Shown: positions 2,851-7,547 of the stretch, piece by piece
Layout: each line of letters opens with the position of its first letter
How positions within the stretch are numbered: position 1 is the first letter of the stretch
Assembly (NCBI GenBank): GCA_023245215.1
Contig: JAHFKS010000010.1
Coordinates: 1-34,585, forward strand
Length of the DNA stretch: 34,585 bases
Reading direction: 5' to 3'
Source of the DNA: Candidatus Microgenomates bacterium
GTDB lineage: Bacteria > Patescibacteriota > Microgenomatia > UBA1406 > GWC2-37-13
The notes under the pieces: generated by a model
Seen by the model: the letters and a program-made list of their open reading frames with translations, nothing else
Told to the model about the DNA's origin: nothing
Databases searched by the model: none
Made by a program: the position numbers and the translations under genes

Positions 2851-4857
2851 TCAATCCCTGGCAACTATCCCCTTTTGGTAGTTGTCGACCTTTTTTTTTA
2901 ATAACCGGTAATTTGTAATTGAAAAATGGCTGTCGAAATATCCGACGGCTTTTTTGGTTTTATCAATCAAAGCATAGTCTCCGAATGAAGCAATTTTCAG
3001 TTCTATAAATCCGTGTTGTTTCATTCCATAAATGTCACCCGGGCCGCGGATTTTTAAATCCTCTTCAGCCAATTTATTTCCGTCGGAAGTCTGAGAAAAA
3101 AATCTCAATCTTTCGATTACGGGTAGAGAATCGGTTTCAGAAAACAAAAAACAATATGATTGTTTATCACCTCTCCCGACCCGACCTCGTAACTGGTGCA
3201 GTTGGGCCAGGCCGAAACGTTCTGCTCCCTCTATCAGCATGATAGTCGCATTAGGGATATCGACGCCGACTTCAACGACCGGCGTCGCCACGAGAATGTC
3301 GGTTTTCCGGTTGTTAAAGTCTTCCATTATTTTATTTTTTTCTTTACCTTTTATTTTTCCATGAAGCAGACCGATTTTAAAATCCGGAAAGATTTTTTTG
3401 AGATTTTCGTATTCGGCTTTGGCGGCTTTGACAGATTTCATAGTTTCTATTTCAGACTCTTCAATCAGGGGGCAGACAATAAAGATTTGAGATTGATGAT
3501 TTAAGATTTCAGATCTCATCCATTGATATCCGGCCTGTCTTTTTTCTTTTGAAACATAGAAAGTTTTTACACGTTTTCGTCCAGGCGGCATTTCATCTAT
3601 GATAGACAGGTCCAACTCTCCATAAAGAGTCAGCGCGACCGTACGGGGTATCGGTGTTGCCGTCATCGACAGCAGATGAGGAGTTATGCCTTTATTTTTT
3701 AATTCAGCCCTCTGGGCGACTCCAAATCGGTGCTGTTCGTCGACTATAACTAAGCCGACTTTTTCCAATTTAAATTTTTTACTCACCAAAGCATGAGTTC
3801 CGACTACAATGTCATTTCCGTTTATTTTCTGTGAACCAGTCTGCAGCCCGATTTTGACAGGAAATTTTTTAAATAATTTAACTAAAGTTTGATAGTGTTG
3901 CGTTGCTAAAATTTCCGTAGGAGCCATTAAGAGCGACCTGTATCCGTTGAGGTACGCCAGATAACAGGTCAAGGCGGCGACGACTGTCTTTCCCGACCCG
4001 ACTTCTCCCTGTAAAAAGCGGTTCATCGGATTGTCCTTTTTTAGATCGCTAGATATTTCTTTCCAAACCCGATGTTGAGCTTTTGTTAACTTAAAAGGAA
4101 GGCTTTCTATAAATTTATTGATTAACTTTTCATTTTTACCAGTCAAGATAAATTTATTGGTCACTTTTTCTTTTTCCCATTCTTTTTTAACCAGCCTTGA
4201 AGACAGCTGAATAGTAAATAGTTCGTCAAAAGCCAGTCTTTCCCTGGCTTTTTTTTCAGATTCTAAAGAATCGGGGAAATGAATTTGCTGGTATGCGGTT
4301 GGTTCACCCATAAGATTATTGAATAAAATTATTTTTTCCGGAAAAATCTCTTCGGGGAAACTCTCTATAAACATCATTTTTTCCCTGATGGTTCTCGAAG
4401 ATAATCCTTTCTTTTCCGGATATATCGGAATAATTCTGGCCGTATGAACTCTCTTTCCATTGACTTCATACTCTTTCGGTTTTATCGACAGTTTTTTGCC
4501 GTATTGTTCGATGATTCCGGCGGCGCTTATATTCATTCCTTTTTTTAGCAGCCGCAGTAAATAAGGCTGGTTGTAAAATCCAAGCTCTATCTCGCCAGTT
4601 CCGTCATCCAACTTAAATACCTGGATTTTTAAACCGGTTCTGGTAATTTGGTATTTTGATTGTGAGATTACTCCTTCAACCGTCACAGTTTCTCCGGGCT
4701 GCAGTCTGTTTATTTTTGAAACTATGGAGTAGTCCTCATAACGGAATGGGAAATAGTTGATTAAATCAAGATAAGTATTAATTTCCAAAGATTGGAATTT
4801 TTTGATAGTAACAGAACTGGTCCTTGGAAGCGAAGAAATTGGTTCTGATAAGTTCAT
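2851..4857 (-). CDS. recG: ATP-dependent DNA helicase RecG
   Basis: 668-residue superfamily 2 helicase that reverses stalled forks and branch-migrates Holliday junctions. The N-terminal wedge/OB domain (about 50-135) is followed by helicase motifs: Walker A GEVGSGKT (284-291), DEQH (373-376), SMTATPIPRT (397-406), and motif VI QLRGRVGRG in the second RecA lobe. The C-terminal region ends in the family's usual short domain. The ATG at 4857 has TAAAAT seven bases upstream, a possible leaderless promoter, but a 36-codon membrane peptide gene stops only ten bases upstream and could be co-transcribed. It ends in TGA, which supports the standard code. RecG, RuvA and RuvC all occur in this window, in separate places. 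Confidence 0.96.
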   Translation of the reverse strand: MNLSEPISSLPRTSSVTIKKFQSLEINTYLDLINYFPFRYEDYSIVSKINRLQPGETVTVEGVISQSKYQITRTGLKIQVFKLDDGTGEIELGFYNQPYLLRLLKKGMNISAAGIIEQYGKKLSIKPKEYEVNGKRVHTARIIPIYPEKKGLSSRTIREKMMFIESFPEEIFPEKIILFNNLMGEPTAYQQIHFPDSLESEKKARERLAFDELFTIQLSSRLVKKEWEKEKVTNKFILTGKNEKLINKFIESLPFKLTKAQHRVWKEISSDLKKDNPMNRFLQGEVGSGKTVVAALTCYLAYLNGYRSLLMAPTEILATQHYQTLVKLFKKFPVKIGLQTGSQKINGNDIVVGTHALVSKKFKLEKVGLVIVDEQHRFGVAQRAELKNKGITPHLLSMTATPIPRTVALTLYGELDLSIIDEMPPGRKRVKTFYVSKEKRQAGYQWMRSEILNHQSQIFIVCPLIEESEIETMKSVKAAKAEYENLKKIFPDFKIGLLHGKIKGKEKNKIMEDFNNRKTDILVATPVVEVGVDIPNATIMLIEGAERFGLAQLHQLRGRVGRGDKQSYCFLFSETDSLPVIERLRFFSQTSDGNKLAEEDLKIRGPGDIYGMKQHGFIELKIASFGDYALIDKTKKAVGYFDSHFSITNYRLLKKKVDNYQKGIVARD

Positions 4858-4867
4858 TGAAAGTATT

Positions 4868-4978
4868 TTACCTGATAAATAAAGGCGCTAACGATGACAA
4901 AATCAAAAGCAGTGAAGAAACAACGACGATTACTTTCCACAAAGAATCTCTTTTTATTTTCCTGCCCATTATTTTCAT
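4868..4978 (-). CDS. 36-residue single-pass membrane peptide upstream of recG
   Basis: A short open frame that a length filter would miss. Translation gives a basic N-terminus (MKIMGRKIKRDSLWK), then one hydrophobic segment of about 20 residues (VIVVVSSLLLILSSLAPLFI) and a final Arg, consistent with a single-pass membrane peptide, Lys/Arg side in the cytoplasm. Support for it being real is the promoter: TATAAT at 4986-4991 on this strand, exactly seven bases from the ATG, sharing its bases with the divergent promoter of the penicillin-binding protein. It stops ten bases before recG. I do not recognise the family and propose no function. The alternative is that this is only the recG leader. 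Confidence 0.6.
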   Translation of the reverse strand: MKIMGRKIKRDSLWKVIVVVSSLLLILSSLAPLFIR

Positions 4979-4985
4979 TAGATTT

Positions 4986-4993
4986 ATTATACT
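4986..4993. promoter_or_regulatory. Bidirectional -10 element ATTATACT (membrane peptide/recG and PBP)
   Basis: The eight bases ATTATACT read TATACT (4988-4993) on + and TATAAT (4991-4986) on -. Each -10 box is seven bases from an ATG: 5001 on + and 4978 on -. Neither side has a convincing -35 box. The start codons are only 22 bases apart, so transcription in both directions would have to be mutually exclusive at any moment. Confidence 0.65.
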
Positions 4994-5000
4994 ATTTTTT

Positions 5001-7547
5001 ATGTATTTATCCCGTCGCCTTCGTTTTCGGCAGCAATATTCCCGCCAAAGACTTTTGGCCTATGCCTTGATTATTGCCACTGCCATGGTAATTGTCGGTT
5101 TTATTTTTTCTTTTGGTCTTTTTGCCTGGTATGCTAAGGACTTACCTTCACCGAGCAAGCTCTCCCAAGTGACCGGTTACTCTACTGTTTTTCAGGACAG
5201 AAATGGAAAGATTCTTTATGATATGTATAAAGATAAAAACCGGGTTCCTGCCTCATTCGACGAGATTCCAAGTTATTTAAAACAGGCAACAATATCCATC
5301 GAAGACAAAAATTTTTACAAGCACGGTGGAATTTCTCAGTTTGGAATTATCAGAGCTGGTATCAACATTTTGCTCGGTCGCGGCCTCCAGGGCGGGTCGA
5401 CAATCACTCAGCAGCTGATAAAAAATGTATTGCTTACTTCAAGGCAGACTATATCCAGAAAAATACAGGAAATGATTTTGGCAATGGAGGTGGAAAGGCG
5501 CTACAAAAAAGACGACATATTATTAATGTATCTTAACGAGTCGCCTTACGGCGGTAGTTTTTGGGGCGTGAAGACGGCGGCTAAAGGTTATTTCGGCAAA
5601 GACGTCAAAGATTTAAATCTGGTCGAGTCGGCGATTCTGGCTGGATTGCCCCAATCACCGAGCAGCTATTCGCCCTTTATAGGCAAAAATGACGCTTGGC
5701 GCGGTCGCGCAAAAGACGTTTTGAGGAGGATGAGGGAAGATCAATATATTACTAACGATCAGGAAAAAACCGCTCTTGCCAGTCTCGCGAAAATCAAATT
5801 TACTTCACCCAAACTTGTTATTGATGCGCCGCACTTTGTTTTTTATGTTAAAGACCAAATCGATAAAGAATACGGCGAAAAATTAATCGACCAGGGAATA
5901 AAAATAAAAACCACCCTTGATTTAGACGTTCAAAAAACAACGGAAAAAATTGTCGCTGAAGAAATAGAAAAACTCAAAGGATTGAATGCGACAAACGGCG
6001 CAGTAGTTGTTTTGGATTCCAAAACAGGCGACATCTTGGCAATGGTTGGTTCCTATGATTTTAACGACGAGAAATTCGGCAAGTTCAATGCTGCTTTGGG
6101 TTTAAGGCAGCCGGGTAGCGCGATAAAACCGGTTACTTACGCAACGGCGTTTGAAAAAGGCTATACTCCTTCGACAGTATTGATGGATGTAAAAACGGAG
6201 TTTTCTTCCGGGTCCACAGGTGACAAGCCGTATACGCCGGTTAACTATGATGGAAAATTCCGGGGGCCGATGCAGGTCAGGTTTGCTTTGGGCAACTCGG
6301 AAAATATTCCTGCCGTAAAAATGCTCGCTATGGCCGGCCTTCGTGATTTTTTACAGAAAGCAAACGATATGGGTTTAACGCAGTTCGCGCCGACGGATGA
6401 AAACTTAAGGAGATTTGGACTTTCGGTAACTTTGGGAGGCGGAGAAACAACTTTGCTCAATCTGACTTCGGCTTTTTCGGTTTTTGCCGCCGGCGGTCAA
6501 AAAAAAGACACTTCTTCAATATCGGAAATAACCGACTTCAAAGGAAAAACGATTTATAAACAAGTCAGGGTAAGGGAAAAACAGGTAATATCACCGGAAG
6601 TAGCATTTTTGCTTTCCCATATTTTGTCAGACAACAACGCAAGGTTAGATATCTTTGGACCGAATTCTTATCTCAATATTCCCGGAAAAACAGTTTCCGT
6701 CAAAACCGGAACGACCGATGACAAGCGCGACAACTGGGCTGTCGGTTATACAAAATCTATTACCGTCGGCGTCTGGGTGGGAAATAACGATAACACTCCT
6801 ATGAATCCGAAAATCGCTTCTGGTGCAACCGGCGCCTCCCCCATTTTTTACAGATTGATGAGAGAGTTGCTGAAAAATCACGAAGACGGAATCATGGATA
6901 AGCCGGATAAAGTAAAGGCTCTCACAGTTGATGCTTACCTTGGCGGTTTGCCGAAAGACGGCTACCCTACCCGGAGCGAGTATTTTATAGAAGGAACAGA
7001 ACCGAAAGACGTCTCTCCTTATTATAAGAAACTAAAAATATCCAAAAGCACCGGCAAATTAGCTAACGACGTTGAGGTGAAAAACGGGAACTATGATGAA
7101 AAAGATTTTATTGTCATTACTGAAAGCGACCCGGTCTCCGCCGACGGAAAAAACCGCTGGCAGGAAGGAATAGACGCCTGGGTAAAAGACCAGGGCGATT
7201 CCAAGTTCCATCCGCCGACCGAGACTTCAGATGCATCGTCCGAAGACGTAGTTGTTTCCATTAAGAATCCCTCTGGCCAACAAAGCGTCAATTCAAACAA
7301 CGTGGAAATCAAAGCCAAAATAATAAGTATTGCCAAAATAAAAAACGTCAAAATCAAAATAAACGGCTCTGATGTGAAATCAATCGACGGAGACAATAAA
7401 GATATAGATGAAACGATAAATTTAACTGATGGAGCATATGAACTTCAGGTAGTGGCGACTAATGAAAAAGATAAGCAGGGTGAGTCAACGATTAAATTTG
7501 GAGTAAACAAGCCTTGGGATTACGTTACACCGACGCCGACTCCATAA
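5001..7547 (+). CDS. Class A penicillin-binding protein (bifunctional transglycosylase/transpeptidase)
   Basis: 848-residue peptidoglycan synthase. From the chosen ATG: short basic cytoplasmic tail, one membrane anchor (about 20-43), GT51 glycosyltransferase with catalytic Glu101 in EDKNFYKHGG and the GGSTITQQLIKN motif, then a transpeptidase with SAIK (Ser373-Lys376), SEN (433-435) and KTGT (568-571). After the catalytic part comes an Ig-like extracellular tail (about 750-840) ending in TPTPTP. An upstream frame is open to 4824, but the ATG at 5001 is chosen because it gives the normal short tail plus anchor and lies seven bases after TATACT, as in other genes here. It indicates a peptidoglycan wall. 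A weak hairpin overlaps the convergent pheT end. Confidence 0.95.
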   Translation: MYLSRRLRFRQQYSRQRLLAYALIIATAMVIVGFIFSFGLFAWYAKDLPSPSKLSQVTGYSTVFQDRNGKILYDMYKDKNRVPASFDEIPSYLKQATISIEDKNFYKHGGISQFGIIRAGINILLGRGLQGGSTITQQLIKNVLLTSRQTISRKIQEMILAMEVERRYKKDDILLMYLNESPYGGSFWGVKTAAKGYFGKDVKDLNLVESAILAGLPQSPSSYSPFIGKNDAWRGRAKDVLRRMREDQYITNDQEKTALASLAKIKFTSPKLVIDAPHFVFYVKDQIDKEYGEKLIDQGIKIKTTLDLDVQKTTEKIVAEEIEKLKGLNATNGAVVVLDSKTGDILAMVGSYDFNDEKFGKFNAALGLRQPGSAIKPVTYATAFEKGYTPSTVLMDVKTEFSSGSTGDKPYTPVNYDGKFRGPMQVRFALGNSENIPAVKMLAMAGLRDFLQKANDMGLTQFAPTDENLRRFGLSVTLGGGETTLLNLTSAFSVFAAGGQKKDTSSISEITDFKGKTIYKQVRVREKQVISPEVAFLLSHILSDNNARLDIFGPNSYLNIPGKTVSVKTGTTDDKRDNWAVGYTKSITVGVWVGNNDNTPMNPKIASGATGASPIFYRLMRELLKNHEDGIMDKPDKVKALTVDAYLGGLPKDGYPTRSEYFIEGTEPKDVSPYYKKLKISKSTGKLANDVEVKNGNYDEKDFIVITESDPVSADGKNRWQEGIDAWVKDQGDSKFHPPTETSDASSEDVVVSIKNPSGQQSVNSNNVEIKAKIISIAKIKNVKIKINGSDVKSIDGDNKDIDETINLTDGAYELQVVATNEKDKQGESTIKFGVNKPWDYVTPTPTP

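Follow-up and report, generated by a model that had tools for sequence, protein, structure and literature searches.

A conserved single-helix microprotein gene precedes recG in Microgenomatia

Does a reading frame of only 36 codons, lying directly before recG in a Microgenomates genome, encode a protein and, if so, what might that protein do? The window analyzed here is a 34,585-nucleotide stretch of a contig whose host is a Roizmanbacteria-type Microgenomates, the closest relatives of the host genome carrying the label Candidatus Roizmanbacteria. The frame encodes the 36-residue microprotein MKIMGRKIKRDSLWKVIVVVSSLLLILSSLAPLFIR on the minus strand at 4978–4868, from an ATG at 4978–4976 to a TAA stop codon at 4870–4868, with a basic N-terminus, then one transmembrane helix, and a C-terminal end that reads -APLFIR. 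Ten nucleotides (4867–4858) separate the stop codon from the ATG (4857) of the downstream gene, recG (2851–4857, minus strand), which encodes an ATP-dependent DNA helicase and matched TIGR00643 and NF008168 above cut-off. A TATAAT −10 box (4986–4991, minus strand) precedes the microprotein ATG by 7 nt (4985–4979), and the divergent neighbor is a gene for a class A penicillin-binding protein (PBP) of the PBP1A type (5001–7547, plus strand), whose start we moved from TTG 4824 to ATG 5001. The original prediction, which left the strand unstated, had described a frame below the usual length cut-offs with a basic N-terminus and one membrane segment, a stop ten bases before recG, and a TATAAT exactly seven bases upstream of the ATG; the coordinates above and the hydrophobic stretch that follows the basic N-terminus bear out this description. 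At its other end, recG abuts a convergent plus-strand ORF (1648–2850) at 2850/2851 with zero intergenic bases.

A single-sequence search with the window peptide found microprotein matches in 63 of the 72 genomes of the host family, with E-values mostly of 1e-7 to 1e-16 within the genus. A profile built from alignment A1, which has 45 rows with the window peptide among them, matched 74 of the order's 83 genomes and 172 of the 373 genomes sampled from the class; its E-value was 3.7e-18 in the host genome, where the window peptide is itself a profile row, and 1e-9 to 1e-12 in class genomes outside the profile. All genomes are drafts, mostly metagenome-assembled genomes (MAGs), and matches to so short a transmembrane profile were accepted mainly on genomic position; at family and class loci, the relatives' microprotein is nearly always encoded 5′ of recG in the same orientation. 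In class genomes that gave no profile match, a similar small transmembrane ORF was found within 60 nt of recG in 16 of the 23 loci tested and within 150 nt in 20 of them. By the 60-nt criterion, such an ORF preceded recG in 16 of 17 loci from named Microgenomates, compared to 1 of 26 control loci from other CPR classes and 1 of 46 from non-CPR bacteria. The features that define the family are an A1 profile match, a position directly 5′ of recG, a basic N-terminus, one transmembrane helix, and the residues L25, S29, and P32, and the window peptide has all of them. The microprotein is a new, recG-linked family of Microgenomatia. Conservation of the frame upstream of recG in the lineage, on which the original prediction had been made to depend, is evident from the family, order, and class counts, and inspection of close homologues for frameshifts and stops left the frame standing.

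The aligned relatives share an architecture as well as a position. Residues L25, S29, and P32 in the hydrophobic stretch are near-invariant, all 44 aligned relatives have a higher net charge ahead of the transmembrane segment than behind it, and AlphaFold predicted a single helix spanning residues 4–35 (mean pLDDT 84). By the positive-inside rule, the basic flank of a membrane segment lies on the cytoplasmic side; the N-terminus of the microprotein is therefore expected to be cytoplasmic, and we infer a single-pass inner-membrane topology with the C-terminus out. Profile searches of Pfam, NCBIfam, PHROGs, and the PDB found no relative above cut-off, and the weak, scattered matches that did appear, such as DUF2516 in 3 of 44 members (best 1e-3), are typical of bare transmembrane helices. 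A literature search found no paper on the microprotein.

The box in front of the start codon recurs among relatives. With start codons chosen blind to the promoter and at least five of six matches to TATAAT required, a box was present 4–10 nt before the ATG in 46 of 63 relatives compared to 6.7 in shuffles, and perfect TATAAT boxes were present in 22 of these relatives compared to 0.8 in shuffles; windows shifted upstream contained only 3–7 boxes. The conserved box lies mainly 6–8 nt upstream of the ATG, and 6 nt was the commonest spacing in a related scan whose choice of starts favored a −10 box. In that scan, Shine–Dalgarno-like motifs before the microprotein were not enriched (4 vs 4.4). 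In the wider class the −10 signal was weaker (14 of 39 vs 5.5 expected). Because a conserved TATAAT-like box sits so close to the ATG, the mRNA is probably leaderless, with a predicted transcript start at ~4979 on the minus strand; on this sequence evidence, we regard leaderless expression of the microprotein as very likely. The pattern TATAATN5–9ATG occurs 170 times in the host genome compared to 53 times for the reversed pattern, which suggests that leaderless mRNAs may be common in this organism. Within the window, TATAAT also stands 5–9 nt before ATG at starts such as 10480, 13338, 14106, and 15528 (all minus strand), 22684 (plus), 25107 and 29972 (both minus), and 32393 (plus). Our literature search on leaderless genes in CPR bacteria returned only passing mentions.

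Two further promoter-like elements flank the microprotein gene. On the plus strand, a TATACT −10 box (4988–4993) lies 7 nt before ATG 5001 of the PBP1A gene and overlaps the microprotein −10 box by 4 bp, and the two start codons are 22 bp apart; divergent −10 boxes overlap in this way in the window and five relatives (6 of 50 loci), the start sites being predicted only. We therefore designate 4986–4993 a putative bidirectional promoter for the microprotein and PBP1A genes. On the minus strand, a TAAAAT (4865–4870) that contains the microprotein stop codon lies 7 nt before the recG ATG, and the closest relatives also have TAAAAT about 7 nt before recG with the stop codon inside it. Scanning upstream of recG found −10-like boxes in 23 of 60 loci compared to 9.6 in shuffles. 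Thus, recG may have its own start too, and in the closest relatives the TAAAAT could be a second promoter that is proximal to recG.

In most family loci, the PBP gene is divergent and the microprotein and recG genes follow each other on one strand, microprotein first, as in the window. Across the class, among 59 loci (L211 and L262 being the same place), the gene immediately upstream of the microprotein is that for tyrosyl-tRNA synthetase in 35, giving the order tyrS–microprotein–recG, with the PBP gene divergent and farther out where it is within reach; the PBP gene is divergent and directly adjoins the microprotein in 13. At the locus in the window, tyrS is absent.

Could the frame be a chance ORF, or the shadow of a longer PBP1A N-terminus encoded on the opposite strand? 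The plus-strand frame at 4868–4978 itself is full of stops, and the idea arises from a mechanically called plus-strand ORF that begins at TTG 4824, stays open through the region, covers the microprotein bases, and runs into the PBP1A gene. Among 17 ungapped sequences from the genus, differences at codon positions 1, 2, and 3 of the microprotein frame numbered 1441, 462, and 2622, respectively. The closest pair differs by 15 nucleotide changes and only 3 amino-acid changes, compared to 10 expected from random placement of the same nucleotide changes (p=2e-4). Values of dN/dS on the aligned codons were 0.06 to the closest relative and ~0.14 as a median over the pairs whose dS is finite, dS in these pairs approaching saturation; these values are well below 1, indicating purifying selection. 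The antisense frame joined to the PBP is often open because of the wobble positions that it has in common with the microprotein frame, but 19 of the 63 relatives have a broken version of it; moreover, the microprotein is still present in most other class families, where the PBP gene is >1 kb away, and the PBP1A gene has its own −10 box and the more likely start at ATG 5001. We therefore rejected an N-terminal extension of PBP1A on these grounds. Profile E-values, dN/dS values well below 1, and a fixed position in very many genomes together place the frame beyond chance; a chance or shadow origin is scarcely credible, and the frame is almost certainly that of a translated, selected protein. The small membrane protein that the original prediction had thought might be real is thus upheld by residue conservation, purifying selection, the kept frame, start, promoter, and position, and the predicted single helix. 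As a matter of annotation, automatic procedures could wrongly lengthen PBP1A by 59 residues across the microprotein gene (4824–5001, plus strand).

The other function offered by the original prediction was that of a leader peptide coupled to recG, in which translation of the short frame would mainly deliver or regulate ribosomes for recG by coupling or attenuation and the peptide itself would be of little use. This role fits the 26 of 60 family loci in which recG begins within 10 nt of the microprotein stop, with 4-nt overlaps in three, and also the fact that Shine–Dalgarno-like motifs are only slightly in excess before recG (9 vs 3.1 expected). However, the transmembrane residues are conserved under purifying selection, the distance from stop to recG ranges from −4 to 240 nt in family loci, and peptidase S51, antitoxin/toxin-like, or opposite-strand genes intervene in some loci; these genes vary from locus to locus and did not point to any shared function. 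In one MAG (G050), which may be mis-binned, the microprotein gene follows a thioredoxin-like ORF on contig C49, and recG is on contig C51 with no small transmembrane ORF upstream. A leader acting only in cis should never be kept without its downstream gene, an expectation contradicted by G050 and by the intervening genes elsewhere. This separation in one MAG, and the genes between the two in others, thus argue for a trans-acting protein and not merely a recG leader, and a leader function as the main one is unlikely. The near-constant adjacency of recG could mean that regulation in cis matters too, and translational coupling is possible as a side effect where the ORFs overlap by 4 nt or lie within 10 nt of each other. 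By analogy with SidA of Caulobacter and YneA of Bacillus, the microprotein might alternatively serve a DNA-damage checkpoint, blocking wall synthesis or division at the membrane during recG-dependent repair. It shares the size class and single-helix design of SidA and sits between the gene for a DNA-repair helicase and that for a synthase of the cell wall, but size and neighborhood are all that speaks for this role and are weak evidence, and tyrS rather than the PBP gene is the usual upstream neighbor in much of the class; we consider a checkpoint role improbable, more so than a leader. Type I toxins are generally short and hydrophobic with a basic N-terminus, and the microprotein fits in length, N-terminal charge, and hydrophobicity, yet it is a single-copy core gene with fixed neighbors in nearly all genomes, an unsystematic look noticed no antitoxin RNA, and we hold a toxin-like function to be very improbable.

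The explanation that we favor, and regard as probable when taken as a whole, is that the microprotein gene belongs to the core gene set of Microgenomatia, passed on by vertical inheritance, and that its product is a trans-acting, single-pass inner-membrane protein, expressed from a leaderless transcript that continues into recG and serving as an accessory subunit beside a larger membrane protein. The transcript would originate from a symmetric −10 region that also serves the divergent PBP1A gene, start at the microprotein ATG or 1 nt before it, and then run on into recG. The protein would act in trans as an accessory or regulatory subunit next to a larger membrane protein, against which the helix face that carries its small residues (SS...SS..P) might pack. 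For the accessory-subunit role considered separately, we put the chances at about even. Gene neighborhood is the basis for our guess that the partner is PBP1A or another envelope complex.

Outside the class, the lone positive among the 26 recG loci from other CPR classes was genome G515, in which a 37-residue transmembrane peptide precedes recG. Relatives of this peptide are present in 32 of 86 genomes of the G515 class, lie directly before recG in all ten loci read (L298–L307), and are 36–43 residues long (alignment A2). The G515-class peptide resembles the microprotein in its position before recG, length, charge pattern, and lysine-to-proline spacing, and hhalign of the two peptide profiles gave an E-value of 3.2e-4 over 31 ungapped columns; in contrast, sequence similarity is weak, with 10% identity and a probability of 39%. 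Shared ancestry of the two peptides is plausible from these comparisons. A far broader reading would make the microprotein an ancient protein of at least two CPR classes, tied to recG and linking DNA repair to wall growth or division, with leaderless expression from a promoter shared with PBP1A; we give this combination little credence.

Length cut-offs in automatic annotation would miss this gene, which nearly all examined Microgenomatia appear to keep. A gene this widespread in genomes of ~0.8 Mb is probably important to the cell, and its description defines a family of small proteins in bacteria for which genetics hardly exists. The −10 box at the start codon and the genome-wide enrichment of the same arrangement point to leaderless transcripts as a probable routine in the lineage.

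Among known systems, single-helix accessory microproteins of the CydX, KdpF, and AcrZ kind serve defined larger membrane complexes. The microprotein is like them in size, in having one helix, and in its expected action as a small subunit; it differs in its conserved neighbors, which are recG, tyrS, and PBP1A. SidA of Caulobacter crescentus is a 29-residue inner-membrane division inhibitor that is SOS-induced and binds FtsW (PMC4211646). The microprotein is likewise very short with a single transmembrane segment, and its link to DNA repair is one of neighborhood only; whereas SidA is characterized by its induction and its partner, the microprotein is known here from sequence, and we claim no sequence relation between the two. 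Symmetric −10 boxes are known as bidirectional promoters elsewhere (PMC10268837). The divergent −10 boxes in the window overlap in the same way, and their predicted starts, ~21–22 bp apart, fall within the 7–25 bp that define such promoters; unlike those promoters, for which 18 bp is the commonest spacing, the pair described here appears to produce two leaderless mRNAs, from start sites that are predicted only.
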